34,825 bases of DNA from Pinguiococcus pyrenoidosus (taxonomy: Eukaryota > Sar > Pinguiophyceae > Pinguiochrysidales > Pinguiochrysidaceae): NCBI GenBank assembly GCA_019677205.1, contig JAAMXY010000681.1, forward strand, positions 49,238 through 84,062, in the 5' to 3' direction. The position numbers and the translations under genes are program-made. Positions 1-27,100 of the stretch are shown in pieces; the stretch's first letter is position 1, and the number at the start of each line of letters is the position of its first letter. The notes under the pieces were generated by a model. That model did not search any database. It was given only the letters and a program-made list of their open reading frames with translations, and was not told where the DNA came from.

Positions 1-1674
1 AATGATGTAGAAGAAGCTGAAGGGAAAGCTGACAATGATGATCATGGAAGAGCAAACGATGGAGTTCCTTCAGGGGCCGTAGTGGACGGCGAGGAGGACG
101 TAAATGCTGTAGAGGATGAAGCCGAAATCGAAGCCGAAATCGGAGCCGAAATCGGAGCCGAAATCGGAGTCGAGACACTAGACCAGATCGACTATGAAGC
201 AGATGTGGAAACCGATTCTGAAGCCGATGCTGGCATTAGGGGAGAAGCCGAAGCCGAAGCTGAAGCTGAAGCTGAATGTGATAGCCATGTCGGAAGGGAG
301 CCAAATGCCGAAGCTCAATATGCTCCGTGTTCGGACGTTACAGTCCAAGTGGAAGTTGATGCCGGATCGGAGCTCCGAGCAGAATCGATACTTCACGACG
401 AAGCTTCAGATGGCATAGAACCAGAAGCAAGTACTAGGGCGGAAGCGGAAGCGGAAGCGGAAGCGGAAGCGGAAGCGGAAGCGGAAGTGGAAGCGGAAGC
501 GGAAGCGGAAGCGGAAGCGGAAGCGGAAGCGGAAGTGGAAGCGGAAGCGGAAGCGGAAGGGAATAATAGCCTGCCGGAAATGACTCCGATCGGTGGAGGA
601 CTGACGGAGATTCTACCTTCACAAGGTGTCGCGGAATCTTCAAACCCATTGATTGAAACGGTTGAGCCTTCCGAAGTGGCCGAGGCGGTCGCCACCAATG
701 AGTGCCATGTACCAATCGAGCCCAAAGATATCGAGACAGCGATCAGAGAGCCCGTGGTCGAATCTGCCTTGGAACTTGCTTCCACTGCGGAACCCGCTGG
801 GATCCAGCGGATCGATCCCAAGACTTCGACCGAGATGCTGCAGGAAGGGCACGAGCTCTCGTCCGCAACACCAAGGACCACCGAAGCGAGTGAAAATGAT
901 CACGAGCCTCACCAACTGAACACGAAGGAGAGCGTCGGCGAAGTGCAGCTTTCGGACGAGGCTTCGCACTTCACTGAAGAGCCACCACCCCTGAAACCAA
1001 GTGCATCGGCCTCTCTGCCCACGGAGGAGATGACTGCGCCGGGCATTTCGATCACGCAACCACCCGTCGTCGAAGCAAGCGTGTCGCATCGAGCGCTGCA
1101 GCAGACCTCAGCTTCGTCAAGCAGTCTTGCCGAGTCTGCGCCGTCACGTCACGATGAGGCGCAAGGGAGCAGCTCAAACATGTTTGAGTTTGAGCTGGAT
1201 GGCGACTCGCTCCTGTCCGACGGTACTGATGAAGCCAGCAGTGACCCTCCCGAATCGTCCAGCGTGCTACTCTCGGGGGAGAAAGCTGAAACAGAAGAGA
1301 AAAGTGGCATCCAAGGTGTCGGGGATGAAGCAAAGATCGGGTTGGCCTCCTCCGCAAGCGAGGAACTGCCTGCATCTCCGACAGCTGGCACAATGCACAA
1401 GGCCGAAGCGCAAAAGGAGAACGAGGACGCCGAACTCGTCTCGCGGACGGCCCAAGGTGGCGCTGCGATGCAACCTGAAGACGCTTTTGAGTTGGGAGAC
1501 GAGTCCTTGGAAAGTCACCCAAGCGAGGTCGCCAGCACCGACGGCAAAGCGGCTTCTCGCGGGAACGCTGCGGCCCCGGCTCCCCAAGCAGTGGAGGCGG
1601 TCGAGAGAACTGCTTCTGGCAACCAGACTTCCGAGGCTCGCGTCTTTGACCTCAGCGACGAGGACTCGGATTAG
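1..1674 (+). CDS. Acidic Glu/Ala-repeat protein, 5' end outside the window
   Basis: The frame is open from base 1 to the TAG at 1672-1674, giving 557 residues with no start inside the window, so this is the 3' part of a larger gene. The N-terminal third is almost entirely Glu and Ala, with runs of alternating E-A encoded by GAAGCG-type hexamers. The rest is Ser/Glu/Thr/Pro-rich and looks disordered. Near the C-terminus three similar acidic phenylalanine motifs recur: FEFELDGDS, AFELGDES and VFDLSDEDSD, the last ending the protein. I see no catalytic domain, signal peptide or membrane segment and do not recognise a family. Such chains are often acidic scaffolds or chaperone-like regions, but that is only inference. 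The gene is convergent with the NUP188-like gene; the two stops lie about 216 bases apart. That the frame is coding is supported by its length and by the repeats staying in phase. Confidence 0.65.
   Translation, partial: NDVEEAEGKADNDDHGRANDGVPSGAVVDGEEDVNAVEDEAEIEAEIGAEIGAEIGVETLDQIDYEADVETDSEADAGIRGEAEAEAEAEAECDSHVGREPNAEAQYAPCSDVTVQVEVDAGSELRAESILHDEASDGIEPEASTRAEAEAEAEAEAEAEAEVEAEAEAEAEAEAEAEVEAEAEAEGNNSLPEMTPIGGGLTEILPSQGVAESSNPLIETVEPSEVAEAVATNECHVPIEPKDIETAIREPVVESALELASTAEPAGIQRIDPKTSTEMLQEGHELSSATPRTTEASENDHEPHQLNTKESVGEVQLSDEASHFTEEPPPLKPSASASLPTEEMTAPGISITQPPVVEASVSHRALQQTSASSSSLAESAPSRHDEAQGSSSNMFEFELDGDSLLSDGTDEASSDPPESSSVLLSGEKAETEEKSGIQGVGDEAKIGLASSASEELPASPTAGTMHKAEAQKENEDAELVSRTAQGGAAMQPEDAFELGDESLESHPSEVASTDGKAASRGNAAAPAPQAVEAVERTASGNQTSEARVFDLSDEDSD
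121..171 (+). repeat. 12-bp coding tandem repeat (GCCGAAATCGGA)
   Basis: About four tandem copies of a 12-base unit, GCCGAAATCGGA with small changes, lie inside the acidic protein gene. They encode repeated A-E-I-G/E residues and stay in frame. Confidence 0.8.
440..559 (+). repeat. Hexamer (GGAAGC)n coding repeat
   Basis: About 120 bases are built almost only from the hexamer GGAAGC, with two interruptions to GGAAGT. In the gene frame they encode (EA)n with two E-V steps. Hexamers keep the frame when copy number changes, so the tract is probably length-variable between strains. Confidence 0.9.
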
Positions 1675-1890: not shown

Positions 1891-4800
1891 TCATACTTGC
1901 ACGTATCTCCGCACATGCTCCCAGAGGGTCAAGAGCCGCTGCAGGTGCAGCTGCACACCCTCATCGAGTGCCAGGGGGCTGGGCCCGTACGAGTCCTGCG
2001 TGAAGCTCAGGATTCCGGTAGTGCGGCGGCTCGTCTCCAATGGCGCACTATACTGCTGACCGATCCGTCTCATCACGTCCTTGAAGCGACGCAAGAAGGA
2101 CGACAAGCCGGGTCCAAGCGATTGGTGGAACATGTAGCCATATCTACTGCATTCGGAAAGGAGCATGCAGAACAGCGTCAGCCCTTGCAGGTCTTTCTCA
2201 GTGGGAAAGGCAAGTGGCTTCCTGTCCTTCGGTCTCGAGGGCTTCGCCTCGTCGAAACGGATCAGAACCTCCAGAAGCGGGTGGTAGAAGTGCAAGAGAG
2301 AGATCACGGTGTCGAGGGTCGGCGCCTCTTCTTCTCGCACGGCGCACAGCAACCCAACAAGGCCACGGAGTACGCAATGGAAGTACTCCAACTGGGACCA
2401 CGTCCCTCGAGAAGTCGAGGACGCGTCAGCTGCCTTTGAGGACTTGCCCTTCTTCGGCGGTGGCTCTCTCCCAACCTCAAGCTCCCGGCTCCTATTGGAG
2501 ATGTGAAGACAGGCAGTTTGGCTTTTAGCGCAGGCCACTGCGAGAGACAAACCTTCGTGGACAGTCGATACCTGCTCTCCTTCCAAGCCAGCAAGATCGG
2601 ATCAGCGAGGAGCTCCCGAGTGTATCCGCTGCGCACAACAATGGGCGCAAAGAATTCGTCGTAACAGCATCTCATGAAGAGATTGGCGGCGGACGAATGG
2701 ACCAGCTACGTGAGCGAAGCCGCGCGCGTCAGTTGATGTTGCCCACGTGGAAGTGGCGCTCCACCGACAACGCCTACCTGAGCAGCCCCCGCCTCCGAGG
2801 ATAGCAACACAGACCCGCTGTGCAGCAGACCCTGATGGCGTTCCACTTTTGACTGAAGAGATGCCAGAGCCGAGTCAAACTTCCGACCCCACACGCGAAG
2901 CACTCCGAAGATGGCATGCACAAGGCTCTGGCGTTGGCTTATCGACAGCTGCACAACTGGTTCTTCGTGCTTCGGAGGAAACGACGGCAGCAAGGACGAC
3001 AGGAGGCTGATGGCGATGCCAGTCAGATGCGCGGAGACATCTTCTCCGTCGCTTTCCACGCCCTGAACAAAGACAAGCGCCTTGTTAGATCTCACGGTCC
3101 CGACGCCACCCAAGCAGACGGAACCATCAATGAGATCCTACCTCATTCTCGATTTGAAGGGTCACGAGGCAGTGGTCAACCAGAGTTTCGAGCCTCAGGG
3201 TGCTGGGCTTCCGGTCGGCCCCTTGATACGGCGCGCTGAGCGACGTCTGCCCATCTTTCGGCGTCTTTCCCTCCTCTTCCGCACTTGTTACGGTGGCGGC
3301 GTCTCGAGAGAGATGGGCCTTGGTGAGCAGAAGCGCGGCTGTCAGCATGTGCAGCCGCAGGCGGCGAGCGGCATCGCCTCGCTCCACTGCTGGATTGGCA
3401 GTGACGTCGCCAATCAGGCTCAGCAGGCGATTGCAGCCTTGCACGACCAGCTTCAGGATCTCCTCACTTGATCGGAAGATCTTCGAGTCGATCCGAGGCT
3501 CCACCTGTGACAGCGACGGCTCCTGCGTCTTGGTCTTCACCTCATGCAGGCCGTGGTGAAGCATCGAAGCCAGCAGCGCAGCCATCTCCGCTCCGGGACC
3601 ATAGAATCCTGCTCCTCCTCGGGAAGACGCTAGGATCTTGGCGCAGTGGCGCGCAAGCGTGTAGCTCCTGAGATCGCCGCTGAAATCGGACGTCAGAATG
3701 ACCGACGACGGCCCCGGGGAATCCGACGGGGATTCCCCGGCCGAGCCGAGGCTCAGTCGCGTTACCGAGTCTCGCGTCTTCGTTCGGGAGATAATCGGCG
3801 ATTCCGAAAGCTGCGGATGCGGAAGGGATCTTCTTGACGGCGTCTCGGAAGCTGTTCCCGCCGCGGTGATTCTCGCATTGCGCTTGCCCAGCACGCAAAC
3901 CTCCATGAACGTGCGCCATGCTGTGATCAAGGCCCCTCGCGCGTCCGCGAGCGCCCACTCCACGTTTGCCAGGGCCACTGCCCGCAGGACCTGCTTCGCC
4001 TCTTGCCCAAAGCCGATCCTGGTGGCCAGTACGTCCGTATCCCAAATGTAGGACCTACCGAAGGCCAGGTCGAGACCCGCGCCGGACGACGCGATCGGAA
4101 ACGACCGACGGTCCCGGCCGCTGCGGCTCAAGAAGTGATCCAGCAGCAGGCCGCGCTCCTTGGTCAGCTTCGCCGCGTTCGCTAGGATGCCAACGTCCAT
4201 GTCAAAGCGCATGAACATCTTCATCCATTTCAGGTAGAAGTCCCCATGAGCTGCTTTCCTGAGCACCTCTACCACGCACTCGTGTGCCACGGAGGCAGAA
4301 GCGCGCGGATCAGAGAAGAGCACGAGGACGAGGTTGCTTCTCGCGGCGTCGAAGGAGTTGACGTCTGTCGCCTTCTCAATTGCCGAAAGAACTTCGCTTC
4401 CGGTGGCCTCGGCAGACACAGAGACCGCAACATTCCTGCGCTCATCCAGTTCAAGCCAGACGTCCAATTGAACGTCTTCTTGGCCACCGGCCCCTCCTTC
4501 GGAAGCCTGACGATCCGATTGAATGGCCTCCTCCGCCAGAGCGACGATGCCCAGCCCCTCCAGGTAGGGCAGCTTGTCCTCGGCGCAGACGAAAAGAGTC
4601 TTCTTCTCGCCGTTCTTGACGCCGTAGTCTTTCAACCCTTGCTCCTTGCTCACAACGGTGAAAGTCTTTCGGTGCAGTGCACCATGTCGTTCCGCCGCGA
4701 GTATGTGCAACGCAGACGCTCTTGCGCCGAGGCGGTAGCAATGGTGCACAATGGGAAGGATTTGGCGGCGGCCGCTGTCCTGGCCCGAGGCCGCCCCAGC

Positions 4801-7800
4801 TTCCTCGACGCTCCCCGGTTCGCTCGTTTCCCCGGCAGGGCTCGTGTCTCTCAAGGCCTCGCTGGACGTTCCATCGCCGAACCTCAGTGACAGATCATCC
4901 GGCAGGTCTTTCCAGAGGATGTTCGTGACCCCGTTCCAGAACTTCCTCTCTCGAGCGACCACGAGGGCCGACGTACCCACGCGGGCCGTCCGGCTTTCGT
5001 CAAAAAGCAGGCGGAAGAGCTCAAAAAGCTCGAAGGTGAGCATCGGGCTCTCATCAAGCAAGCGCGTGCTCTCCTGCAGCTTCCCCAGCAAAGCGCTCTG
5101 CAGCGGTCCGGGGGAGCTGGCACCCGAGCCTCTCAGGACAAGCGACAGGAGCACTGGCTCTCCGATGGACAGCTCCCGGAGAAGCTGCACGACGGCAATT
5201 TTGGATTCGTCGGCGGCATTGTCGTCTTCGATGATCTTGGCGAGGCTCTCCCCGAAGGGGAACACGTTCTCGATCCCTAGCGCGTCAAGGACTCCAGCTC
5301 CACTCAATCGGCGAATGGTCAGGGTAAGAACACGGGTGGCACGGACTGTCAGTTCTGTCGACGGATGGTCCAGGAGGCTCGCGATCAGGAGCAGCTGGCT
5401 AGGAGAAGACGCCGAGCCCGCGGCTGGGGGCCTCAGCAGCAGCTGTGCCGCCTTCAAACCAATCTCACCGCTGAGCAGGACTTCCAGGACCACCAGTGCA
5501 CTTTCGGTCAGGGCCTCCCCGACGTTTGGGGCCAGCCGCGGCAGCGCGCTGCTTATTCGCATCCCAGCGTCCAGGTTGAGCGGCAGAATGGCATCCGCGC
5601 CAGCTCGGAGGGGAACCGAGAGACGTCCGCTCGACGCGGGAAGCAGGTCTCCCAGCACCCGGGGGGTCACGCTATGGACCGGGATGCTGCGCCGCAAGGA
5701 CTCCAAGGGCAGCGAGACTGCGTTGAGGACGATTCCGCTCCAAAGCTGATCGTCGGCGAGGAGCCGGCTTCGGAGGTGTCCCCGAAATCGGTCGTGTTCC
5801 TCCGCAATCGCTTCGGCCTTGGGGACCTTCGTCGCAGTGCCATGGCTCGGGTTGCCCGACTGGAGCAGCTGCGCCAGGGTGCGGAGAGCCAGCGCGGAGC
5901 ATCTACTACCGCACTCGAAGGACGTGGCGCACAGTTCGACGATCTCTACCGCCATCGTGAGCAGCTTCTGTCGTCCAGCCGTGCTGCTCTTGGAGCGATC
6001 CCCTTCGAGGAGATGCTGCATCAAGACTCGCAGCTCCGCCTCTGCTTCCGCCTGCTCGTCAAAGACGTGGGATGCGCTGTCGCCACGCTCGTCCGCCGAG
6101 CGTCCGCTCTCCAGCGCGAAGCCCAGGAATTCCTCGTAGTCGACAAGGCCGCTGCCGTTCAGATCCATTTTCTTGTAGAGCCGGCTTAGCGCCGCGGAGC
6201 TCAGCCGCAGCCCGGCTACCCTCTGAAGCCCGTCTGCAAACTCCACGCGATCCACCGTGCCGCTGCCGTCCGTATCGAAGCGACTGAAAAGACCTTTCAA
6301 GTCCCGCCTACTCGCGGGAGTCAGGAGATCCTTCGCCAGGAAGGAGCAGAAATGGAGGGCAGCCTCCACCAGCTCTCCTCCGCCCCTCTCCGCGATGGAG
6401 GTGACGAAGCTTTGCCCTTCCGCCTGCTCAAGAATTGCTTCCACGACGCTGCTGGACCACCTCGCCGTGTCGCGAAGCATGGCGGCCAGCGCGTCGAGGC
6501 AAGACACCGCGGTGGATAACCAGTGCTTGTTCAGGGCCTGATACAGCAGTCGGGTGAGAAGTCTTGCCAAGCTCAGCTCCTCGTCCAAGTAGTCGGACGG
6601 CTCGCATTCTTGATAGCCGTAGCATCTGCTGGCGAGGTAGAGGGCCTGGCTCTCCGGGAGCCGCACCCCCGCGGTTTCCAACGCAGCGACCGGATCGCGG
6701 AAGAGGATCGGGAGCGTCAGGCCGCCCTGTGCGCAAACGCTGATCACGTCCTCGGCCAGTCCCAACGATCGCAGAAAGGAGCTGCAGCGGCACCTGGCAA
6801 TGTGCTGAACGAGTCTGCAGGCCAGGCTGGTGTCGTACCGAAACACCTGCTGGATCAAGCGGGATCCCGTCGCAGCCAAGGGCTCCTGGGCATGGCCTCC
6901 TCGGGCCATTCGCGTCAGCCGTGCCAGAAGGACGAACCAGCCGGAGTACATGACTTTGAAGGAGCACGCCTTGAATCTCGCGGCGCCATCAGCCCGATCG
7001 AAGGTCACGCCAACGGTTCCCCTCGGAAGGACGACCGCGCCATCTTCCGTGTACACGTCGTTTGCCACGAGGACGAGGTCGTCTCCCGGAGCAGCAGCCA
7101 GGGAGGCCACGTCCAGGTCGCCGGCGAAGACGCTCATCTCCGCAAAATACATGAACACGTTCCTCGCCGTGAAGGCGTCTGCACTGAGAGAACCCAACAG
7201 CTGGAGCAGCGGCTCCATGCGGAGGGGGTAGACCATATTGCATGCCACGAGCAGATCGATGCCCGGATCGGAGTGCTTCCCGCTGCCAGAGGCAGCACGC
7301 GACAGGATGGACGAGACGTCGTCCTTGCCCTCGGCAGAGTCCGCGTTGGCGAACTCGATCCAGAAGTCCCGGCAGAGCGGACTTCGGTCGAAGTAGACCT
7401 TCGTGATGAGCTGGTGCAGCAGCTCCGCATTCGGGTTTGCGACCCTCGGCTCAATGGACAGCTTCGCTCCGAAGCCTTCCGGACTGTAGAAGACTTCCAT
7501 GACGGCCATGAGCACCTCGCGAAGCAGGCAGCCCGCGTGCACCATTGAAGCATCCATGGCAAGCGGGGCCTCGCCCAGCAGCTCAGCGCCGCTGAGCCCC
7601 CCCGCCTCCGACGCCGTCTCCGCGTCTCGGATGCGCTGCAGAAAGCGCTTCTCCAGCTCTAGGCCCGTCGACTGCAGAGCGGCGTCCGTGCGTCGGAAGA
7701 CGCTCTGCTCGGCGGTCAGGATGTCGAGCAGGTTCTCGAGAAACGTGAACGCCCCGCGATCATTCGCGGCGACGCAGAGCACCCTGTCAGAGTCGCCGAC

Positions 7801-8886
7801 GTCAAGCTTGGCTCGCCTCTTTGCAAGGTTAAGGAAGAGTCCGAATCCGAGCTGAATCACGGTGGCCGGACCCATCATGGCGCCCACGTGGCCCTGCGTC
7901 CCTGCGCCAAAGTCCGCCATGCCAGCCACCACCGCGCGCAGGTCTTCGAGATCCTCTGGCATCTCCCCACGCAGGACCCCATCGAGAAGGGGATGCTCCG
8001 ATATCTCAACGTCGTCGCGGCCGAAGCGCCACAGCTGCATCGCCTCCAAGGCGCAGAGCGTGGCTTTGGCCGGGCGGTCCTCCGCTTGATCCGCAGCTTC
8101 GTCGACAGCCACGAAGAAGGATCGGTCCTTCATGATCTTCAGAAACGCCAAGAGATCCGAACGTCTGCAGCTGACGTGCAGCAGCAGCAGCGCATCCAGG
8201 AGAAGCCCTTCCTGCTGCCGGCGCTGCCGCTGGCTCTCCCACCGGTGCATGGCCGAGAAGGTGTCGTCAAGCATCTTGGCGTGCGCCAGGTACTTTGACA
8301 GCCGGAAGGGCTCCGCGCCTCTCGCTCGCTTGTGGCCCCCTCCGAGGATGTCCAGGACCGTCTTGTGGATATCATGGGCCAGGAGCAGTTGCACGGTCTT
8401 GAGCACGATGTCGAAGGATGGGTGCATTTCGTCCTCGGCCGCTCGCAACAGATAGGTGAGAGACCGCAAGTTGTACAGCTGCTGTGTGAAGAAGTACGCC
8501 CGCAGCCTCTCGAGGGTCTTGGGGCTCTCCAGCTCGTCGAAGTCCACGTCCTTGGTGTAGTTGGCCTCCAGGAAGCGCAGGAAGACCCGGCCGGCCTGGA
8601 CTTCGTCGATGCCCACGAGACTCGCGAAGGCCAAGATGAGCTTCGCAGCGGCTTTGCCGCCCGGCAGGCTCTCTTCTTTGCCGCCCTCGACGACGTTGAT
8701 GCGCTCCGCCTCGATTTTCGCCCGGGACGCCGCGCTGGGCGGCTCGTAGAAAGCTTCGAGCAAGCGGAGTCGTTCGAACACCTCTCCCCGCGGATCCAGG
8801 ATCCGCTCCAGGACCTCCGGTGGGCCGCCGGCCTCCAGCCGGGTGTACACGAGGTAGTCATCGATCCAGCTGGTCAGATCATCCAT
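1891..8886 (-). CDS. NUP188-like scaffold nucleoporin with an internal EF-hand pair (four exons)
   Basis: Likely inner-ring structural component of the nuclear pore. Exons on the minus strand: 8886-3142, 3062-2778, 2705-2572 and 2491-1891, with introns of 72-80 bp (GT-AG; phases 0, 0, 2), giving 2254 residues. The chain is almost wholly helical and repeat-like. The NUP188 call rests on one region. A PLLQLLGSL...VFMYFAEMSVF stretch is followed at about residues 599-659 by a segment with LPRGTVG and YSGWFVL, matching the SH3-like insertion and its PQGTVG motif as I remember them from animal NUP188. At about residues 870-920 there are two canonical EF-hand loops, DTDGSGTVDRVE and DLNGSGLVDYEE, with Asp/Asn at 1 and 3 and Glu at 12. 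They lie inside the 5745-base first exon, so they are not a splicing artefact. I chose the MDDLTSW start because the 74 upstream codons look non-coding. A NUP205 relative is the main alternative. Confidence 0.72.
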
Positions 8887-9089: not shown

Positions 9090-9159
9090 CGTGTGTCGCG
9101 CAGCCCACGCGGTATGGTGTCGCGCACTAGGAAAAGCTCCAAGCTCCAAGCTCAATGCT

Positions 9160-9256
9160 GAAAACCGAAATGCCCAAAAACCGAAATGCCCAAAAACCGA
9201 AAAACCGAAAAACCGAAATGCCGAAATGCCGAAATGCCGAAATGCCGAAATGCGGA
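9160..9256. repeat. CCGAAATG / CCGAAAAA tandem repeat
   Basis: About a dozen imperfect copies of the 8-base units CCGAAATG, CCCAAAAA and CCGAAAAA lie in the intergenic region. The last five are nearly perfect CCGAAATG copies. It is a microsatellite-like tract with no coding evidence. Confidence 0.85.
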
Positions 9257-9931
9257 AATTGAAAATGCACAAATGCTTAAAATAGAGAAGTAGTCCATTG
9301 GAACAGCTAAATTCAAAATTTAAAAATGCCAAGGAGCAGCAGCTGGGGAAGGAATACCATGGTCGGATAACATGAGACCAAGGTACTCGAGTTTCGGAGA
9401 GGGGTACTACCCAGAATCCCTGGCCCACGTTGGCCCACGTCATATCGGTTTCTCCTCCGCTTCCGGGTAGACATGACGTCCTCACCGTATCGCCAATCAG
9501 TCAGCGAGAATCCCGACTTCTCATTTTTGTGATTGGCGATTCCATCTCCCCTTCTCCGCTCGAGGCGTTGACCGCACCAATGCCGGAGTCGGCGCCAAGG
9601 ATTGGACCATTTGGACCAATCCCCGACATCGTCTTTCGATGTCCGGCCCATACTCCCGCGTAGCATGACCGTATAAGGCGCCATGCACTCGCGAATTTCG
9701 CCCCGGCTCGACGTGGCCACTTCAAGCACGTCTTCGGCTAGGAAACAGTAGGGCACAGAGAGCAACTAAAATCCTTACCGATGTCCAATCCACATTCACA
9801 ATGAAGAGCTAGGATCGGCTATCCAAATGCGACATCGGAGCATTTGCGTATGTCAGTGCCAAAGCAGAAGGATCCGACGCCTTGAGAGCCCCACCGTCCG
9901 TGCTCCCGCGCCGCTGTTCGTCTCCAGCAGT

Positions 9932-11528
9932 ATGTTCAAGTTCGCCGCTGTCGTCGTTGCCCTCCTGGCCGCGCAGGCCTCCGGCTTCCGCACCGGCCGC
10001 CGCGTGGCCTCCTCGCCGCTCCGCATGAGTACGACCGAGGAAGCCGCCACGAGCCTGAAGGTAAGCACCGATCGCCTCGCAGGCGTCCGCTCGCGCCTCG
10101 AGCTGAAGCGTGGTGTGGCTTGAAGAGAAGAGTGCGGTGCGAGAGAGACGGGGGGACGGGCGGTGAGACGCGCGTGTGCCGGGCTGGGCGCGCGGGCTTG
10201 AAAGAGCGGACGGTGCCCTTAGGGTGACGCATGCAGCTTTTTGAAGTTTCGGAATCGGCGCCACGGGAGCGCGCGTTCGCTTCCCAGCGCGCCCTGGGCG
10301 ATTGCAGAGTGCTCAGCGAGGACAGGGCCGGGAGGAGGAGGTGGCAGCCGAGGCTCGGGGTGTGAGGACGTCCGACTCGGACCTTGCATTCGGATCCGAA
10401 CCGTCCGCTCACGTCGTGGCTCCGTCTCCCCCTCTCTTGCGTGCCTTGCAGATGCCCGAGTCGGTGAAGCCGGGTGTCGTGACCGGCAAGGCCCTTATGG
10501 ATCTGCTCGAGTACGCCAAGGCCAACAAGTTCGCTATCCCCGCCGTGAACTGCGTGTCCTCCTGCTCCATCAACTCCTGCCTCGAGGCCGCCAAGAAGCA
10601 CGGAGGCCCCATGATTGTCCAGTTCTCCCGCGGTGGCGGCCAGTTCCTGGCCGGCAAGACCGCCGATAACACCGATGATGCTGCTGCCATCGCTGGGTGC
10701 GTCGCCGGTGCCCTGCACGTGCGCCAGGTCGCCGAGCTCTACGGCGTGCCCGTCATCCTCCACACCGACCACTGCCAGCGCTCCTGGCTGCCCTGGTTCG
10801 ACGGCCTGCTCGAGGCCAACGAGAAGTACTACGCCCAGCACGGCGAGCCGCTCTTCAGCTCCCACATGCTTGACCTGTCCGAGGAACCGCTCGAGGAGAA
10901 CATCGCCACCTGCAAGGAGTACCTGGACCGCATGGCCAAGGTCGATCTCCTGCTCGAGATGGAGCTTGGTGTGACCGGCGGAGAGGAGGATGGCGTCGAC
11001 AACACTGGAATAGATAACTCGCTTCTTTACACGCAGCCGGAGGAGGTGTACGCCGTGTACGAGGAGCTCTCGAAGGTCGAGGGAGGCATGTTCACCATCG
11101 CCGCGGCCTTCGGCAACGTGCACGGCGTGTACGCGCCGGGCAACGTCAAGCTCACCCCGGAGATCCTCCACAACAGTCAGAAGTACCTCGTTGAGAAGAT
11201 TGGCGACAAGTACGGCGACAAGCCGCTCTTCTTCGTCTTCCACGGCGGCTCCGGCTCCAGCCGCGAGGACATCCGCTACGCCATCGAGGCCGGCACCATC
11301 AAGATGAACATCGACACCGACACGCAGTGGGCCTTCTGGGACGGCATCCGCGAGTACGAGGCCGCCAACCGCGACTACCTGCAGGGCCAGATCGGAAACC
11401 CGGATGGAGAGGACAAGCCGAACAAGAAGTACTACGACCCGCGCATGCCGCTCCGCTCCGCCGAGGAGAAGATGGCCGAGCGACTGGGCGAGGCCATGGA
11501 CGACTTGAACTGCATCAACGTCGTCTAA
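9932..11528 (+). CDS. Plastid class II fructose-1,6-bisphosphate aldolase precursor (two exons)
   Basis: Reversibly cleaves fructose-1,6-bisphosphate into dihydroxyacetone phosphate and glyceraldehyde-3-phosphate, probably in the plastid Calvin cycle. Exons 9932-10060 and 10452-11528 are joined across a 391-bp GT-AG intron in phase 0, giving 401 residues. Exon 1 encodes a hydrophobic signal peptide ending AAQASGF, the aromatic cleavage-site type of complex red plastids, then an Arg/Ser-rich transit peptide. Exon 2 holds the full enzyme: HTDHC with the catalytic Asp and a zinc His, GVTGGEEDGVDN, FGNVHGVY with the second zinc His, FVFHGGSGS with the third, and MNIDTDTQWAFW for phosphate binding. 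These place it in class IIA, like the E. coli FbaA group. Exon 2 itself begins with ATG, probably the ancestral start. A plastid-targeted class II aldolase is characteristic of algae with secondary red plastids. Confidence 0.93.
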
Positions 11529-15991: not shown

Positions 15992-16716
15992 TGCACGAGC
16001 GGCAGACTGTGCAACGGACTGCGGCGCCGTAGGCAGCACTCGCAGAGCGCAACGCGAAGCCAGAACATTGGGGAAGAAACCGGCTGAGCCATCAGAATCA
16101 GTCTCTCAACTATATCTATTTATCTTTGACCTGAACTCCTCATTATAGCATAATGATGGTAGATAATGTGGATGGTTTGTGGTACGTAACGTAAGTTCGA
16201 GGATTTCAAATGGAGCTGGAGGAGAAACGCAAGTGCGGAGTTGTTCCGGCGTAGGATGCTGGATCAGCTGCAACCCAAAACGCTCCGGATAGGCCGACGT
16301 GGGTCTGACTTTCGGCCCTACCCCTACGTCCACCAGTGAAGGCTTCCCAACCCCTGCGGATGCAAACCAATCGAAGGCGCCGGGAGACTATGCTGGGGAA
16401 TGTGGCCAATGAACAAATTCCACCTTTTTCCACTTCGGCCAATCCCGAGAGCCTGTTGTGCAACAACGTCGACCCGCCCGCAAACATCATCCATGATTGG
16501 CTCCCTGCAAAACTTGTTTTGCTCTGTGGAACGAAACGTCAACGCGCCTCTCATCCTTATCCACGCGTGTCAAGGCTCTTGAGTGAATCATATGATCGAC
16601 CGGCGCGGAACACGCTCCGCTCCCTCCGCATCAAAGGCCCATCTTCCGTTTCCGCGTTCTGCTACGCGCTCGCGCTGCAGGCCCGCAGAGAGCGCCCCGC
16701 CGCCGAGCAGCGCAGG
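15992..16716. other. Divergent intergenic region, duplicated-module gene to DUF1800 gene
   Basis: Likely shared promoter region for two divergent genes. An AT-rich patch at about 16110-16155 (TATATCTATTTATC, TATAGCATAATG) stands out from the GC-rich surroundings and is a candidate core-promoter area. The plus frame is open from 16336 into the DUF1800 gene, but its 127 codons before 16717 are of mixed composition and show no targeting or domain motif. Confidence 0.45.
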
Positions 16717-19700
16717 ATGAGTCGCTTTACGCCTCGCGAGGGACCCGCCAATGGCGGCGCGGTCGTCGTGCCTGGCGACGCCGAGACGGGAGGCAAGCCT
16801 GGCGATCCGGGCTTCTCTGCCTCCGCGAAGGGGAACAAGAGGAATCTCATCTGCGGTCTGAAGAAGACCACGGCCGTGGCCATTGTGGTCACCAGCGTCC
16901 TCGTGATTGCGGCGGCTGGCGTCGGCTACATGCTGACCAATGCCGGCTCTGACTCCGACTCGTCCGGCGATGGCCCGGTGCAAGCGCCGGAAGTTGACGG
17001 CGAGACGACGACGCTGAGCCCCGGCCCCGTGCGCCTGCAATCCAGCGATGCCAGCACGCTGTACACCGTCTCTCGCGTGACCCCGGAAAGCGGGGACGGC
17101 GTCTACACCCCCGGCGCGAGGTCCTACGACGGCAACACCTGGGAGCCCGTACCGCCGCTCTACCTCGAGATAGCCTGTAAAGACGACGTCTGCGTCAGCA
17201 ACATTCCCAACGACGGCGCCGAGTACGTGCTGCAAGGCGTGAGCGTCCGCGGGGAGGCGGACGTGATCGCCGTCTCGGACGAGGAGCAGATTGCGCGCTT
17301 CTTGATCGACGGCACCTTCGGTCCCACCCGAGAGATGATTGAGAACTTCCCCGGCTCGGCCTCGCAGGACTTCTCCCGCCGAGCCCAGCAGTGGCTCGTG
17401 GACCAAATGAATGCGCCGGCGACGCTGCACAGGGCGTACATTCGTGAGCGCGCGAATGTACGCATGGCCTCCACGTTCCCCACGCGAGGTCCTTGCGACC
17501 TGAACTCCCGCTGGCTCCGCTTCGGCATCACCCACGAGGACATGGGCCGTACCTTCGAAGTATCCTCCACCACCTTGGAGCTTCGGGTCGACGGAGCCCT
17601 GCGCACCGTCCTTACCGAGTTCCCCGGCGCTTCCACGGACACGGAGTACACCATCTGCGAAGTCGAAGACTGGCTTGGCGGAGACGTCGAGTTCGGCGAC
17701 GGCTGCGACCTGACGATGCCGAACCCGGCGGTGGCCTTCCCCGGCGCCAGCGTACCGACTGCGTCGCTGGTGCACGCAGGCGCCACGTTCTCGCCGATCG
17801 AGTCGCAAAAGGCGGGGGTCATGACGCTCACGGCGCGGCCTCAGTCCCAACAAGACTGCGGGGTGAATGTGGCGCCTCCGCTCTTCGCCACCGACTCGGA
17901 CGGGAACTGGCTCATCTTCGAGCGCCGCCTGCGGCTGCTGGACAACACCCTGGCCAATCCGATGGCCAACACCGAAGGCGCCCTGAGCGACGATCCGACG
18001 ATCAGCTGCCCGGTGGTACCCAAGACGTTCCTAAACATCGAGACCTGCGTCCCCGAGGCCAGCGCCTGTGTGACGCCGACGTTTTCGTCGACCATGATGA
18101 GGCTGTCGGAATCCAACATTCGCAACTTCTTCACCACCTCGGCCAAGTACGTGTATGTCATCCGTGGCCTGCCCAGCAGGAACTTGGGAGAGCCTTGTAC
18201 CAGTGGCAGGTCGCGCTGGCTGCGCCAGACTGGGACGTGCAGCGACGCAGACACCATCGACGCAAGTACTCTCACCGTGATCACTGAAGCTCTGGAGAGC
18301 GCCGACGACGGCGCGACGGTAGTGGACATCAACGTGGCCTCCGACGACGGCTGCACCGACACCAACATCTCCGGCGCGAAGATCAACGCCGCCTACAGCA
18401 ACGGCAACACCGTGTGCTGGGAGCAGGTGCACGACGACCTCTACAGCGTCTACGACTTCTCGGACTGGACAGTCATGCACTTCGGCAACGACGATGCCCA
18501 CCGCGCGGGGAGAGACAACCCCATCACGGCCTTCGCGGAGAGAGATGGCAGCTCGTTCTTGGACTACCCGTCCTCGCACTCCATCGAGCGGTGGGAATCG
18601 AATCGCGACTTCCCATACCTCGGGCGCTTTGGCCAGGAGGTGGACTTCGCCTCGTTGCCACAGAGCGTTCGCACCAAAGAGATGGCCGCCTTAGTCGGCT
18701 CTGCCATCTCCTACGCTGGCGGCATCGGCGAAGAGGCCTGCGGTTCGCCAGGCGAGGTGCGGAACCTGCCCATGAAAGGCGCGCACTATCCCTTCGCCAT
18801 CAACAGCATAGAAGAACTTCGTACCCAGGAGTTCGACCAACCCCTGTTCCGCGACCGCTCGATTGACGGCAAGTACCACGTATGGCTGAACGTGGCGCTC
18901 AAGGCCTCCGATCAATTGCGCCAGCGCATGGCATGGGCGCTTGCGCAGATCTTCGTGATCAACGAAGAGGGCGCCGGCTCGCAAAACTTCCAAGAGGCCT
19001 ATGCGACCTACTACGACATCTTCGTGCGCCACAGCTTCGGCAACTTCTTCGACGTGCTGCGGGAAGTGAGCTACTCGCCACTCATGGCCTCCATGCTCAC
19101 ATTCGTGAACTCGCGGTCCCTCCAGTACCAGCTGGACCGCGGGCGCCGGATCTTCCCTGACGAGAACTACGCCAGAGAGATCATGCAGCTGTTTACCATC
19201 GGCCTGTGGAAGCTGAACGCCGACGGCACGCCGATGCTCGACGCGAACGGAGAGCGAATGGCTACCTACACCAACGATGACATCCTGTCGTTTGCCCGCG
19301 TTTGGACGGGCTTCGTCCGCCAGCCGGGCCGTGAGAACATCGAGCAGCTCTACAACGTCAACAACATCGACCCCATGCGCATTCGGGCCGACTATAGGGA
19401 CGTCTTCCCCAAGGCCGGTCTGGACGGCGCCTTCATCGGAGATGGGTATCCCTTGTGCACGCAACTCCCTGCGCAGCCCTTCCTCAAGAAGGGCGCCAAG
19501 TTTGTCTATCTCGGGAACAGCCCGCTACCCAAGCTGCAGAATGACCCAAGCGACTTCGTAGAATCGGGCGTGCTCCGCATGACGCTGAACGCGGACACGT
19601 CCGCTCTCTACGAGACCCTCTGTAACGACGACGGCTCCGGCTCCTGCCGCTTCCGAAGCGTCGTCGAGCTGGCGGAGAATCTCCCTTGCGACGGCAACGA

Positions 19701-22700
19701 GTGCAACGTGGACACCGTCCGCACGGTGCTGCTCATCCTCGACGGCGGTCGCCGGGTCTACTACGAGTACCGGCGCCAGCCCTGCGTCAAAATGGCGTTC
19801 TACGAGAACGGACGAACCGTCTCCAGGAGCAACCGACAAAGAAACGTCTGCGCCGATCCTGGTACCTTTGCAGGCAGCACGGCCTGCGGCGACGACGTTG
19901 GTGACTCCGTCGCCGATCGCGTGTGCCCTTACTACAACAACGAGAGGGTCAGCTACGATACCGCGCAGGCGCGCTGCGAAGCCAATGGCAACAAGACCAT
20001 AAGTACCTGGACCCGCATCACCCTGAACAGCTGCACGTGGGAGACGCCCGTCTGGTCCGCCTTGCCGTGCCAGGTGCAAGCCAAGGTGACGGAGGATGGT
20101 CGTGTGGCTTCGGTGCATGTGATTGAGGATGCATTCCGGAGCAACAGGCTTCGACGCGAGCTGAACGAGGAGACGCAGAACATCTTCCGGGCGAACTGGC
20201 TGAACGAGCAATACCCGAAGCCCAGTGAGGGCTGCCGTGGCGGCGACTGCGACTTCGTCGCCGACCTCGACGCCTGCATGTGCAACGCGACCGTGACGAC
20301 GTCGTCCGTCTTCGACTCCATCCCCAGCGTCGACGAGGCTCTGCAGCGCCTTCGTATCGGGTCGATGCCTCCGGATGCCTACGAGGCCGGAGCTTATGAA
20401 CAATGCGACACCGCGGCATGCCAGCAGAGCGCGGCCGCCGGCGTCACCGTGTACACCGAGCGAGGGGCGAACGGCCTCAGCGAGAACAGCATCTTCAAGG
20501 TAGAGACGCCGGCGCGGGAACCACGCTACTTCCGCAACCTGGCGTCCGCGGTGTACGTGGGCGATGGCATGGGCTTCCACAACCCGCCGTCCTTCTTCAT
20601 GCAGGACGAAGTGACCGTGCGCGACGCTGAGGACGAGACCGACGCGGTGCTGAAGCACCTGCTCTACAACGACAACACGCCGGTGTTCTTGGCCGACTTC
20701 CTCATCAAGCGCTTCACCACCTCCAACCCGGCGCCGAGATACGTGGCGAGCGTGGCGAATGCCTTCCGCATGGGAGCCTACAACGGCATCGGCAGCGGCA
20801 AGTATGGAGACCTCGGCGCCACCCTCGCCGCCATCCTGCTCGATCGCGAGTCGCTGTCTGCCGCGGTAGCGCTGGACCCGATGCACGGGAAGGTGCGCGA
20901 GCCCTTGGTGAAGTTGGTCCACTTCATGCGAGCGCTGGACTTCGATGCCAAGGAGGCGTGGGAGATCCCCATGCGCGACCTGGACAGCGACATCGGGCAG
21001 ATGATTTGGAGATCCCCCAGCGTGTTCAACTTCTACCAGTCCGACTACCAACCGCCGGGTCCCGTGGTGGGCGCCAACCTCGTGGCGCCGGAGGCGCAGC
21101 TGCTCACGACGCCCAACATCATCAGCTACCTGAACGGCATGCTGAGCCTGGTGCGGTTCGGCCTGCTCGACTGCTACGGCGGCTTTGGCCACGACAACTA
21201 CTTCAACCCGTCTTGCTGGCAACTGCGGCGCGGAAGCATCAACGCCGAGGACTACAACTGGGGACAGCTGGAGTACGAAGCGCCCATCGGCGCCAACAGC
21301 TCCCAAGTCATTGACGACTTGGATCTCCTTCTTACGGGCGGGCGACTTCACCCTGCCAATCGCAAGATTCTGCAAGACGTCTACGACGCTAGGTACGAGG
21401 ACGGCGGCAACTTGGACGACGCGCTGCGAGGCGCGCTCACCCTCTTCGCCGGCACGCCGGAGTTTCAATTCACGGGCGGGCTACACCGACCACTTGGTAG
21501 TGCGCTGTCCAATGACACCCAGAGCGAGCCCACGGAGCGGCCGTTCAAGGCCATCGTGTACCTCTTCTTCTCCGGCGGGATGGACTCGCACAACCTCGTG
21601 GTGCCGCACTCCGAGTGCGGTGCAACCGACATGTACGACATGTACAGCGACGTCCGGACGGACATAGCGCTGGCAAAGGACGACCTGTTGCAGATCGACG
21701 TGCCGGCGGGGACGCAGCCTTGCGGCGTCTTCGGCATCCACCCAGACCTGCCGTACGCCAAGGAGCTCTACGAAGACGGAGATCTGGCCTTCGTCGCCAA
21801 CGTCGGGCCTTTGATCGAGCCGGTGACGAAGGAGGAGTACCGCCGGCGGTTGAAACGGCTGCCGGCGTCGCTCTTTGCCCACAATGTGCAGTCGAAGGTG
21901 ACCAAGACGGTGTATGGCCAAGCCAGCACGCCCACCGGCGTCCTGGGCAGACTGAACGACGCGCTGACCGAGAACGGCTACAACACGGCGTCCTTCTCCA
22001 TCAACGGCCCAGCCATCGTGTTGGATGGCTACCCTGGCGCCTCTCAGGCGGCCGACGTCCTAAGCTCCAATGGCGGGACCGTGACGTTCGATGTCGGCGA
22101 ATTGGCGACGGACCTCAGCGAGCCGCTGCGGGAGCTCAACCAGAACTTCTCCAAGTCGTACTTCGCGGGAACCTGGTCGAACCGCCTGGAGAGCGCCCTG
22201 AGCCGTTCGAAGATTCTGGAGGACGCGCTGGAATCGTCGGAGCTCACCAAGGACTTTGGTGCCGCCGGCCGCCTCGGCGCCCAGCTGGAGCAGGTGGCGC
22301 GGCTCCTGTCGGTCCGCGGGGAGTTCGGAGCGGAGCGCCACTCGTACTACGTCGAGCTGGGTGGCTTCGACACCCACTCGGACAACGGGCAGGTGCTGAC
22401 CCGAAAGTTCGTCGAGCTGAACGGTGCGCTCCGGAGCTTCAAGGAAGAGATGGAAGGCCAAGGTCTGTGGGACAGCGTGGTCCTCGTGGGCGCCTCCGAG
22501 TTCGCGCGGACTCTCACGAGCAACGGCGCCGGTACGGACCACGGTTGGGGAGGGAACATGTTCTTCACCGGTGGCGAGGTCAGGGGAGGTCAGATGCTCG
22601 GCAGGTATCCCTCGGACATCACCGACGACGGCGAGCTCAACATCGGCCGCGGAAGACTGATTCCGACGATGAGCCTGGAAGCCGTCTGGAATGGCATCGT

Positions 22701-22821
22701 TGAGTGGTACGGAGCGAGCAGTTCGCAGAAGCCTGCCGTCCTGCCGAATATCGGCAACTTCCCGGACGCGGATCTGCTCTTCCGCAGCGATCTGTTCGAC
22801 GTTGAGGACCTGGGAGTTTGA
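16717..22821 (+). CDS. Giant membrane-anchored DUF1800-DUF1501 fusion protein
   Basis: An intronless 2034-residue protein. Start MSRFTPREG is chosen because it gives a short cytosolic tail, then a single membrane segment at about residues 51-75 (AIVVTSVLVIAAAGVGYM): a type II anchor with the rest outside the cytosol. DUF1800 features follow: ARFLIDGTFGPTREMI at about 190, LRQRMAWALAQIFVI at about 735, NYAREIMQLFTIGLWKLN at about 815, and FLADFLIKRFTTSNPAPRY at about 1325. Cys-rich, probably beta-type insertions separate these blocks; one at about 1065-1120 carries NNERVSYDTAQARC. Residues about 1608-2030 form DUF1501, with FSGGMDSHNLV, GGFDTHSDNG, SEFARTLTSNG and DHGWGGNMFF, resembling the alkaline-phosphatase/sulfatase-like superfamily. 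In bacteria the two families are typically separate neighbouring genes. The fusion and the lack of introns suggest bacterial ancestry. Substrate and role are unknown; a surface or wall function is inference. Confidence 0.85.
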   Translation: MSRFTPREGPANGGAVVVPGDAETGGKPGDPGFSASAKGNKRNLICGLKKTTAVAIVVTSVLVIAAAGVGYMLTNAGSDSDSSGDGPVQAPEVDGETTTLSPGPVRLQSSDASTLYTVSRVTPESGDGVYTPGARSYDGNTWEPVPPLYLEIACKDDVCVSNIPNDGAEYVLQGVSVRGEADVIAVSDEEQIARFLIDGTFGPTREMIENFPGSASQDFSRRAQQWLVDQMNAPATLHRAYIRERANVRMASTFPTRGPCDLNSRWLRFGITHEDMGRTFEVSSTTLELRVDGALRTVLTEFPGASTDTEYTICEVEDWLGGDVEFGDGCDLTMPNPAVAFPGASVPTASLVHAGATFSPIESQKAGVMTLTARPQSQQDCGVNVAPPLFATDSDGNWLIFERRLRLLDNTLANPMANTEGALSDDPTISCPVVPKTFLNIETCVPEASACVTPTFSSTMMRLSESNIRNFFTTSAKYVYVIRGLPSRNLGEPCTSGRSRWLRQTGTCSDADTIDASTLTVITEALESADDGATVVDINVASDDGCTDTNISGAKINAAYSNGNTVCWEQVHDDLYSVYDFSDWTVMHFGNDDAHRAGRDNPITAFAERDGSSFLDYPSSHSIERWESNRDFPYLGRFGQEVDFASLPQSVRTKEMAALVGSAISYAGGIGEEACGSPGEVRNLPMKGAHYPFAINSIEELRTQEFDQPLFRDRSIDGKYHVWLNVALKASDQLRQRMAWALAQIFVINEEGAGSQNFQEAYATYYDIFVRHSFGNFFDVLREVSYSPLMASMLTFVNSRSLQYQLDRGRRIFPDENYAREIMQLFTIGLWKLNADGTPMLDANGERMATYTNDDILSFARVWTGFVRQPGRENIEQLYNVNNIDPMRIRADYRDVFPKAGLDGAFIGDGYPLCTQLPAQPFLKKGAKFVYLGNSPLPKLQNDPSDFVESGVLRMTLNADTSALYETLCNDDGSGSCRFRSVVELAENLPCDGNECNVDTVRTVLLILDGGRRVYYEYRRQPCVKMAFYENGRTVSRSNRQRNVCADPGTFAGSTACGDDVGDSVADRVCPYYNNERVSYDTAQARCEANGNKTISTWTRITLNSCTWETPVWSALPCQVQAKVTEDGRVASVHVIEDAFRSNRLRRELNEETQNIFRANWLNEQYPKPSEGCRGGDCDFVADLDACMCNATVTTSSVFDSIPSVDEALQRLRIGSMPPDAYEAGAYEQCDTAACQQSAAAGVTVYTERGANGLSENSIFKVETPAREPRYFRNLASAVYVGDGMGFHNPPSFFMQDEVTVRDAEDETDAVLKHLLYNDNTPVFLADFLIKRFTTSNPAPRYVASVANAFRMGAYNGIGSGKYGDLGATLAAILLDRESLSAAVALDPMHGKVREPLVKLVHFMRALDFDAKEAWEIPMRDLDSDIGQMIWRSPSVFNFYQSDYQPPGPVVGANLVAPEAQLLTTPNIISYLNGMLSLVRFGLLDCYGGFGHDNYFNPSCWQLRRGSINAEDYNWGQLEYEAPIGANSSQVIDDLDLLLTGGRLHPANRKILQDVYDARYEDGGNLDDALRGALTLFAGTPEFQFTGGLHRPLGSALSNDTQSEPTERPFKAIVYLFFSGGMDSHNLVVPHSECGATDMYDMYSDVRTDIALAKDDLLQIDVPAGTQPCGVFGIHPDLPYAKELYEDGDLAFVANVGPLIEPVTKEEYRRRLKRLPASLFAHNVQSKVTKTVYGQASTPTGVLGRLNDALTENGYNTASFSINGPAIVLDGYPGASQAADVLSSNGGTVTFDVGELATDLSEPLRELNQNFSKSYFAGTWSNRLESALSRSKILEDALESSELTKDFGAAGRLGAQLEQVARLLSVRGEFGAERHSYYVELGGFDTHSDNGQVLTRKFVELNGALRSFKEEMEGQGLWDSVVLVGASEFARTLTSNGAGTDHGWGGNMFFTGGEVRGGQMLGRYPSDITDDGELNIGRGRLIPTMSLEAVWNGIVEWYGASSSQKPAVLPNIGNFPDADLLFRSDLFDVEDLGV

Positions 22822-23783: not shown

Positions 23784-24174
23784 GCTGTGCACCAGGTCGT
23801 TTCGCCTCACACGCCGCACCGCACCGCCGCTTCGCCAGGAATGTCCGCGGCAAAGCCGATTGGGCTTGGAGAGCCGCAGATGGACGCTCCAACGCAGGGG
23901 GAAAATGGCGCGAAAAGGCCGCCGCTTCAGATACGGCATAGGATATCCGATGGGCGGTTTCGCGCGGATCCCAACGTTCAGTGGCGGGAAACTCCGAGGT
24001 GGGACAGACGGAAGCCTTTTTGAACGTGTCGAAGTACCTTGGCAAGTACCACAGACACGATACTCCTGTGGATAGCGCTCTGGTATCCGAAGGGTACTGA
24101 AGTACCCCGTGGACAGAGACGGCCGAAGCGTCCCCGCTCTCTCCTTTTGGCGCCACGCGGCGCGGGGGCGCAAG
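23784..24174. other. Divergent promoter region, HAD gene and RBBP6-like gene
   Basis: A 391-base gap holding both 5' ends. It contains AAGTACC at three places near the RBBP6-like start (about 24032, 24044 and 24101) and the palindrome listed separately. No gene is supported. Confidence 0.55.
24092..24107. promoter_or_regulatory. 7-bp palindrome GGGTACT-GA-AGTACCC
   Basis: A perfect 7-base inverted repeat with a 2-base centre lies about 68 bases upstream of the RBBP6-like ATG, near two further AAGTACC half-site-like sequences. A dimeric transcription-factor site is a plausible inference; there is no direct evidence. Confidence 0.3.
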
Positions 24175-27100
24175 ATGGCGTCGCAGGTGTTCGTGCGCGC
24201 CAAGCTGGGCAAGAAGTTCGAGACGGTGACGTTCGAGGGCGATGCCATCCGGGTGGTGGACCTGAAGATCAAGATCATGCAGAAGAAGCGCATGGACAAG
24301 GCTAGGGACTACTTCTTGGAGCTGTCCTTCGCGCAGAACGGCGCCAACGTGCTCACCGACGACGACTCGGTGCCCAAGAACTCCCAGGTGCTCTTCCGGA
24401 GGGTGTCCGCCAAGGGAAAGGCCAAGAGAGCGCCGGCGGCGCCCGTAAAGAACGAGGAACCGAAGGCGGCGGAGCCCGCGAACGACGAGAACGCCGAGGA
24501 CGACGCGATCTTCCAGTCCATCAACGCCATCTCGAGCGAGTTTCGTCCGGGTGGGGGCGAGAAGTCGCAGCGCACCTGGACCAGCGAGTCGGAGTCTCGG
24601 GCGGGCAGTCTGATCGGGGGCTCTTCGGCGATGGCCGAGCGGCCCTCCGGCCATCGCGGAAGCGGCGGTCTGTCTGGGCTGATGAATCACCGGCAGCACC
24701 GGCAGTTCGGCCGGCCGCCGCCGGACTATGTGTGCAAGCGCTGCGGCATCCCGGGCCACTTCGTGCAGCACTGCCCGACGAACGGCGACGAGCGCTATGA
24801 CATCGCGCTGGTCCCGAGCTCGAAGGGCAAGCCTCAGAGCACGTTCAACTACATCACGGAGGAGGAGGCGAAGAACTACGACCCGTCCAAGAACATGGTG
24901 AAGACAAGTTGGGGATATGCGCTCCTCAAGGCAAACGACGCTGACCTCAACAAGCTGAAGAACAGCAACTATTCCAACCTCAGCGGCATCTACGAATCGG
25001 AGAATGTCCCGGACGCGCTCAAGTGCAAGATCTGCTTCCGGCTGATTCGTGATGCCTCCATTCTCCCGTGTTGTGATGAGACAGCTTGTGATGAATGCCT
25101 GCGAACGAGCCTGATTGAGGGAGAAATGAAATGCCCTTTGTGCCACACCCTCAACGTGTCGCCAGAGTCTCTGCGCCCGAACAAGGGCATCCGGAAGGCC
25201 GTCGAAGAATTCTTGGAGAAGCACAAACTAGAGAAAGAGCGGGAACTTGCCGAGCAGAAGTCTGGAAATGCCACCGTGCCGGTGCTGCCAGAGGAAGAGA
25301 AGATGTCCGGGACGGACGCAGTACTCGAGCTCCTACCAACTGAGGAGACACAGGAGGATGTCAAACCAAAAGAACAAATGCAAGATGATTCCGAAAAGCC
25401 CCTTTCAGACGACTCAGCCAGGCAGACGGCGGACGGACCCGAAACGCAAGGTGCTGATGACAACGCTAGGCATCCCGTGGACGGGTCCGCGCCTCCAGGT
25501 GCGATCCCTCCCGAGCAGCAGGGCTTCCGCGGCCCCGGCGCTCCTCCTGGGCCGGCTCCGTGGATGGGGCGGCCCACGTGGGGAGGGCCGCCGGGCGGTT
25601 GGATGGGAACCCCACGGATGGGACCCCGGGGAATGGGCCCGCCCGGCATGGGGCCGAACGGAATGGGCCCGTCCGGCATGGGGCCGCCCGGCATGGGCCC
25701 GCCCGGCATGGGGCCCCCAGGCATGGGCCCGCGAGGCATGGGCCCGCGAGGCATGGGCCCGCGAGGCATGGGACCGCCTGGGATGGGACCGCCTGGGATG
25801 GGACCGCCCGGCATGGGGCCACCGGGGATGGGACCGCCCGGCATGGGGCCACCCGGGTATGGCTTTATGGGGAACGGGCCGCCGCCGTACATGGGCCGAG
25901 GACGCGGGCCATACAACAACATGGGCCGTCCGCCGATGCAAGGCCCCATGGGCCATGGTCCTGGGCGAGGGCCTGGCGGAATGCCACGGCCATCCCAGAT
26001 ATCTCGACGACGTCCGATGCCTGGAGCGGGCCCGGATCCGATGCCCGGGCCTCGTGCGGCTGGTGCACCACGCGCGACGCCAGGCCCCGGGCCAGGTCAG
26101 TCACCAGGCGACTTCCCCGGGCCGATGGACGGAACTGGGCCAAACGACAGCCACGTGCAGGAGGAAGCGGCAAGAGCGGGACATAACAATCCTTCCCAAG
26201 GAGACGAACGCGACTTTCAGAGACCCGAACAGGAAAGGTCCAACGCGGGCCAAGGCCCGTATCCCGGCGACTCTTTCAGCTCGTTTCCGGTGGAGCGTTC
26301 TGACGCCGATCGGGGTAGAGCTCCGCCGCGCAGAAAATCTCCGCAGCGCGTAGGAAAAGTGCAGTACGCAGATATGGCCCGCCGATCATCCCCCCACGGC
26401 GACGACTCCCCTCGAGGAAGAGGGTATTCGTCTCGCGACAGGAGCCGCTCTCGCGACAGGAGCCGCTCTCGTGATCGACTGCGTCGCGCTTACACTTCGG
26501 GTGTGCGGGACGATACAGGGGAGCGTGAAGGAAAGGATCGAAGTCGAGGTCCGGACAAGGATTACGCTCGAGTGACGCACGAGCGTAGCAAGTCGTATCG
26601 ACCTGAGCACGACGATCGAAGCGAAAGAGCCCGAGGGAGCTATCGTGATGGCGATCGTGATCGTGATCGTGATCGTGACCGCGACCGTGAGCGTGACCGT
26701 GACCGTGAGCGTGACCGTGACCGTGATCGCGACCGAGGCCGCGACCGCGACCGCGACCGGGACCGGGACCGGGACCTGGACCGGAACCGTGGCTATGGAA
26801 AACCCCAGGGAAGGGAACGGGATAGAGATCGTCGAGATGCAGATCGGGTTCGAAGCCGGGTGGTGGAACTGGGTCCGGATAGGGGAGATGGGGACGACGA
26901 ATCCAACGCTAAAGGCATGGAAAGCGGCCGAGAAGCTCGTTCAAGTCGAGTAGCAGATGGGCGCCGAATTCACGACTATGACCGCCATCGCCAGCGGAGT
27001 CGCGACCGCGACCACGCCCGCGACCGGGACAGCGAGCGTGACCGCGATTGCAACCGTGACCGTGCTCAAGATCGGAACCGAGATCGGGATCGTGCCCAAG

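Follow-up and report, generated by a model that had tools for sequence, protein, structure and literature searches.

Introduction

Whether nuclear pores respond directly to calcium has long been debated. In EF-hand proteins, ligand residues that are acidic or polar occupy positions 1, 3, 5, 9, and 12 of a 12-residue binding loop flanked by helices. One such protein, centrin 2 (Cdc31), is described as associated with pores (PMC8622359). In contrast to the algal protein reported here, centrin is separate and soluble, and it is listed with NUP107-160 and with SAC3/GANP rather than as part of an inner-ring scaffold chain (PMC8622359). In yeast, the inner ring is reported to contain two NUP188 copies in each of its eight units; Nup188 meets Nup192 over a broad interface involving Nup188 residues ~174-819, and in the constricted pore the SH3-like domain of Nup188 reaches Nic96 of the adjacent unit (PMC9061825). 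According to PMC3679522, all Nup188 orthologues possess the SH3-like insert, at a conserved position, and Nup192 lacks it. In the literature searched, with most subscription journals outside its scope, we found no report of EF-hands inside NUP188 or NUP205.

Here, we analyzed a 34,825-nucleotide stretch of DNA (the window) from the alga Pinguiococcus pyrenoidosus (contig JAAMXY010000681.1, positions 49,238 to 84,062 of the forward strand), the minus strand of which encodes a NUP188-like protein carrying two EF-hands. Coordinates of the gene, its conserved segments, and a related gene elsewhere in the genome are collected in Table 1.

Table 1. Features of the NUP188-like gene and of its relative in the same genome. 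Positions are those of the window unless another contig is named; aa, residues of the predicted protein.
Feature	Position	Strand	Extent and basis
Exon 1, NUP188-like gene	8886..3142	-	5,745 bases, aa 1-1915, ATG at 8886; open frame, translation, splice model
Putative exon 2	2778..3062	-	After GT-AG intron 3141-3063 (79 bases); predicted
Putative exon 3	2572..2705	-	After GT-AG intron 2777-2706 (72 bases); predicted
Putative exon 4, including stop	1891..2491	-	After GT-AG intron 2571-2492 (80 bases); predicted
N-terminal NUP188 block	8113..8769	-	aa 40-258, corresponding to human/Xenopus NUP188 residues 42-245; phmmer against PDB
Second block	7135..7431	-	aa 486-584, Pfam Nup192 match below cut-off; aa 542-587 correspond to human NUP188 430-474
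Candidate SH3-like insert	6910..7092	-	aa 599-659, LPRGTVG ... YSGW; limits from the earlier note
EF-hand pair	6118..6306	-	aa 861-923; Pfam EF-hand_7, model, Foldseek
EF loop 1, DTDGSGTVDRVE	6276-6241	-	aa 871-882
EF loop 2, DLNGSGLVDYEE	6165-6130	-	aa 908-919
GTAGG...TTTGCAG stretch across EF loop 1	6311-6234	-	78 bases, frame-keeping GT-AG; caution, no intron proposed
Nup205/Nup192 gene, contig C179	L014 2169-7842		1.7e-15; two open stretches match Pfam Nup192

Results and Discussion

Gene Model and Identity of the Host Protein

The minus strand contains an open frame of 1,999 codons (9126-3127) without a stop. When read unspliced from its ATG, the gene yields 1,919 residues before a stop codon is reached. 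Three GT-AG introns were picked by eye, the third being one among many frame-keeping options, and the resulting spliced protein is 2,254 aa long and ends at position 1891. The earlier note on this DNA had claimed the same joined length, which we reproduced under that choice of third intron. The EF-hands lie well within exon 1, and none of the three modeled introns reaches them.

To keep calmodulins from dominating the results, the EF-hands were removed from queries used in searches of the PDB (177,635 sequences). Only three sequences were returned for aa 1-850 at E ≤10, i.e., human NUP188 (2.4e-4), Xenopus NUP188 (2.6e-4), and KIF-binding protein (0.33), and the two NUP188 sequences were alone below E 0.1. 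Likewise, both sequences found with aa 1-480 were NUP188 (Xenopus, 1.5e-4; human, 0.023). Within the second of the two matching blocks (Table 1), aa 542-587 scored 71 against human NUP188 (z 10.9), with none of 500 shuffles performing as well; the corresponding count for Xenopus was 1 of 500. The match of Pfam Nup192 to the second block (aa 486-584; 17.5 bits, E 6.7e-4) fell short of its cut-off of 28.7. We also built a profile from stretches of three solved NUP188-type sequences, namely human, Xenopus, and 9sob_B, the last of which is named Nucleoporin (DUF3414) and is related to human NUP188 at E 1.1e-11. This profile scored 11.4 bits against the 1,919-aa protein (no shuffle out of 1,000 exceeded 4.7), and the segment it matched, aa 549-589, coincides with the aa 542-587 block. 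Since the aa 40-258 and aa 542-587 blocks both match human (5ijo_J) and Xenopus (7wkk_B) NUP188 and are collinear with them, the host protein is very probably NUP188. It differs from these proteins in its greater length, as the splice model gives 2,254 aa compared to chains of 1,749 and 1,739.

The strong support for this identity is confined to the N-terminal half. NUP188 was absent from PDB searches with aa 935-1915 and with exons 2-4, neither of which produced a relevant match, and aa 471-850 alone found KIF-binding protein (0.11) as its sole match and not NUP188. The earlier description of a NUP188-like nucleoporin is therefore borne out by the two blocks and the profile in the N-terminal half and goes without a NUP188 match in those three segments. 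A local match from aa 1324 on, equaled by 1 (human) and 4 (Xenopus) out of 500 shuffles, was not counted as evidence for NUP188, as it leans on a stretch rich in S, P, and E. Pfam Nup188_N and Nup188_C searches of the alga's own genome gave no match, but they gave none in the control genomes either, and this negative result therefore carries no weight.

The SH3-like segment that the earlier note had placed at aa 599-659 follows directly after the aa 542-587 block, at the position expected in NUP188, and its LPRGTVG ... YSGW motif has the counterpart IPQGTVG ... YSSW in human NUP188. Position and motif speak for the claim, but the alignment is weak: when aa 620-650 were compared to human NUP188 513-539, 7 of 500 shuffles were as good, and for Xenopus the number was 139. 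Neither a 131-aa piece around the candidate nor aa 471-850 found NUP188 in the PDB. Beta strands appear at the candidate in a model of low confidence (mean pLDDT 45.8). The assignment is therefore weakly supported.

The alga's own genome (23.7 Mb in 768 contigs) was also searched for Nup205/Nup192, a family paralogous to NUP188. A Nup205/Nup192 gene was found on another contig, C179, two open stretches of which matched Pfam Nup192 at 58.8 and 33.6 bits. The search that found this gene at 1.7e-15 matched the NUP188-like gene weakly (0.0353), and the two genes are distinct. When aa 1-850 served as the query, the own genome contained no match at E ≤1 other than the gene itself. Within these searches, then, the genome holds one Nup205-type gene together with the present gene, which is the pattern expected of NUP188. 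In contrast to the NUP188-like gene, the paralogue has no EF-hand in the two open stretches scanned by Pfam.

The EF-Hand Pair

An intact EF-hand pair lies in frame with the NUP188-like sequence. Pfam EF-hand_7 matched aa 861-923 at 40.4 bits (E 4e-10; cut-off 30), and the two loops, which share the same open frame, are spaced 37 residues apart. When scanned with a PROSITE-like 12-residue pattern, the 1,919-aa protein matched at these two loops only; across the whole window in six frames, the pattern had one further match, which was unpaired (30502-30537, plus strand). Shuffling the protein 10,000 times gave at least one loop in 247 cases and a pair spaced 30-45 residues apart in none. Both loops have ligand residues at positions 1, 3, 5, 9, and 12 as well as flanking helices, as seen by Pfam, the structural model, Foldseek, and the pattern. 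A phmmer search of the PDB with the whole ORF returned 388 distinct sequences at E ≤1; among the best 60 of these, radial spoke protein 7 was on top and most were calmodulins, matching at the EF segment.

The coding character of the ORF runs unbroken through the pair. GC content at codon positions 1/2/3 was 0.66/0.42/0.77 in aa 861-925 compared to 0.66/0.46/0.77 in the remaining ORF, and the synonymous-codon score of the EF stretch was 0.162, with a mean of 0.222 (SD 0.071) elsewhere in the ORF. The claim of two canonical 12-residue loops, spaced as an EF-hand pair within one uninterrupted exon, is thus confirmed by the Pfam score, the shuffles, and the continuous codon usage.

When aa 845-935 were modeled alone (mean pLDDT 74.8), five helices were obtained, four of them around the loops, along with two short strands in the loops. 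Foldseek returned zero matches for the modeled pair at E ≤0.001; its best matches were calmodulin N-lobes at E 1.5e-3, with TM-scores of 0.65 by query and 0.76 by target, and TM by query length rose to as much as 0.66 (calmodulin N-lobe). In this model, the isolated pair is predicted to fold like the N-lobe of calmodulin, with which it shares two helix-loop-helix units and short loop strands. However, calmodulin is a free sensor, whereas here a single lobe is located inside a large scaffold protein. Since every side-chain ligand position is filled, both loops are likely to bind calcium.

Placement and Origin of the Pair

The pair lies ~200 residues past the SH3-like position. For aa 770-862, immediately upstream, 28 of 500 shuffles aligned to human NUP188 as well as the real sequence did, and 1 of 500 to Xenopus NUP188; for the longer aa 665-860 the counts were 107 and 20. 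Downstream of the pair, shuffles as good numbered 464 (human) and 162 (Xenopus) of 500 for aa 928-1010; for the longer aa 928-1120 they numbered 340 and 359. For the EF segment itself, they numbered 257 of 500 (human) and 352 of 500 (Xenopus). A MAFFT alignment of the middle part set 61, 59, and 58 of the 63 EF columns against NUP188 residues and misplaced the SH3 motif. The pair may have been inserted between helices or may have taken the place of a repeat.

No EF loop was found by the pattern in the solved NUP188 stretches, i.e., human 427-1093, Xenopus 427-1086, and 9sob_B 457-1056. Considering this, and that the EF segment does not align to NUP188 above the level of shuffled sequences, we read the pair as a gain in this lineage. 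For the earlier proposal of such a gain, the absence of the pair from the solved stretches compared is favorable, but no algal relative was found by which the gain could be dated. Among 5.8 billion proteins, no relative was found using the whole ORF (E ≤0.01), aa 481-850 (E ≤0.01), or aa 470-858 (E ≤10), where each search scored ~8,000 candidates sharing 5-residue words and, by our estimate, could miss relatives of ~40% identity; a scan of a collection of viral contigs with aa 1-850 also gave none. The EF pair matches at least 23 other places in the own genome at E ≤0.001. The best-scoring of these is 39% identical and none exceeds 43% among the matches listed, and judged by these identities the pair is no recent copy of any of them.

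Proposed Role and Alternative Explanations

Taken jointly, the results lead us to favor, if by a little, a NUP188 with a calmodulin-like calcium-binding lobe in its central region, acting as a calcium-sensitive contact of the inner ring. The lobe would sit in a central, presumably helical, region of the protein. Calcium binding would open it and expose a hydrophobic face, and the open lobe could then shift the packing of adjacent solenoid helices or dock a partner, such that the contact between NUP188 and the remaining inner ring would become calcium-sensitive. Since yeast Nup188 meets Nup192 across residues ~174-819, a calcium-dependent change in this region could matter, and by analogy an effect of the EF pair on Nup192- or Nic96-type contacts is possible. 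An inner ring with its own calcium sensor, in which 16 responsive lobes per pore would alter NUP188-NUP205 or NUP188-NUP93 contacts and with them pore width or traffic, extends the analogy further and appears unlikely. If it were true, a rise in nuclear or cytosolic calcium would translate into altered pore width or traffic. A nucleoporin of the scaffold that contains an entire EF lobe would offer a genetic handle on the question of calcium and the pore, and the pair, if truly part of NUP188, would mean that the pore's conserved core has gained a domain.

Two alternatives concern the protein that carries the pair. The gene could encode another helical-repeat protein with EF-hands that resembles NUP188 in places only, a proposal with which the lack of relevant PDB matches for aa 935-1915 and exons 2-4, the failure of aa 471-850 to find NUP188 by itself, the Pfam Nup192 score under its cut-off, and the weak SH3-like segment would all agree. 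However, two collinear blocks indicate the NUP188 family, and no other protein scored better than NUP188 when the PDB was searched with aa 1-850, which exclude the EF-hands; we regard a different protein as very unlikely. Alternatively, the EF segment might not, or not always, be present in mature NUP188, owing to an optional intron (exitron), a gene-model fusion, or an assembly join. The gene model is predicted from genomic sequence, and the sole GTRRG donor-like site in aa 820-940 lies at 6311, just ahead of the EF pair. Removal of the 78 bases from this donor to a TTTGCAG acceptor (6311-6234) would keep the frame and lose loop 1, and removal of 270 bases from the same donor would lose both loops. 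The 78-base stretch is close in size to the modeled introns (79, 72, and 80 bases), and introns 1 and 2 also start with GTAGG. Nevertheless, exon 1 has 11 GTRRG sites, and for 6 of them an acceptor of this kind follows at 60-100 bases, which makes the signal unremarkable; moreover, the 78 bases code for a canonical EF loop, unlike an intron, and the frame of 1,999 codons has no stop and unchanged codon usage. Loss of the EF segment from the mature protein is, on balance, highly improbable.

The closest rival to a calcium-sensitive contact is a genuine NUP188 in which the inserted EF pair is passive, holding calcium or magnesium permanently for the sake of its own fold or tethering a partner independently of calcium signals. 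In favor of this, the pair is complete by Pfam and the model, NUP188 is a scaffold, and no coupling of the lobe to the solenoid is visible in the model of a longer piece, most of which has low confidence. On the other hand, all side-chain ligand positions are retained in both loops, which points to lasting selection for metal binding. In addition, since the best-scoring EF-hand elsewhere in the genome is 39% identical and none is above 43% among the matches listed, the pair looks old and undecayed. We therefore consider a passive insert the less probable explanation, albeit one of real weight, and retain a calcium-sensitive NUP188 contact as our preferred reading.

Neighboring Genes

Several other features were noted in the window. 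At its beginning, an acidic frame (1-1674, plus strand) has, by eye, long Glu-Ala repeats at ~430-560, and no Pfam match at E ≤0.01. Short CCGAAATGC-type tandem repeats occupy 9150-9260, between the NUP188-like gene and a class II fructose-bisphosphate aldolase gene (9933-11528, plus strand) that was recognized from its translation. Downstream, the single protein encoded by a 2,170-codon frame (16309-22821, plus strand) contains both Pfam DUF1800 (E 1e-54) and Pfam DUF1501 (E 7.1e-27). A frame of 1,126 codons (24076-27456, plus strand) has DWNN, CCHC zinc knuckle, and RING matches, all below cut-off, a layout that we take to be that of RBBP6-type proteins. On the minus strand, 32339-33790 encodes a violaxanthin de-epoxidase lipocalin domain (Pfam, E 4.5e-61). 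The leader of the aldolase is on a separate first exon and resembles, by eye, a secondary-plastid targeting signal; together with the violaxanthin de-epoxidase domain, the aldolase suggests a photosynthetic eukaryote whose plastid is secondary.
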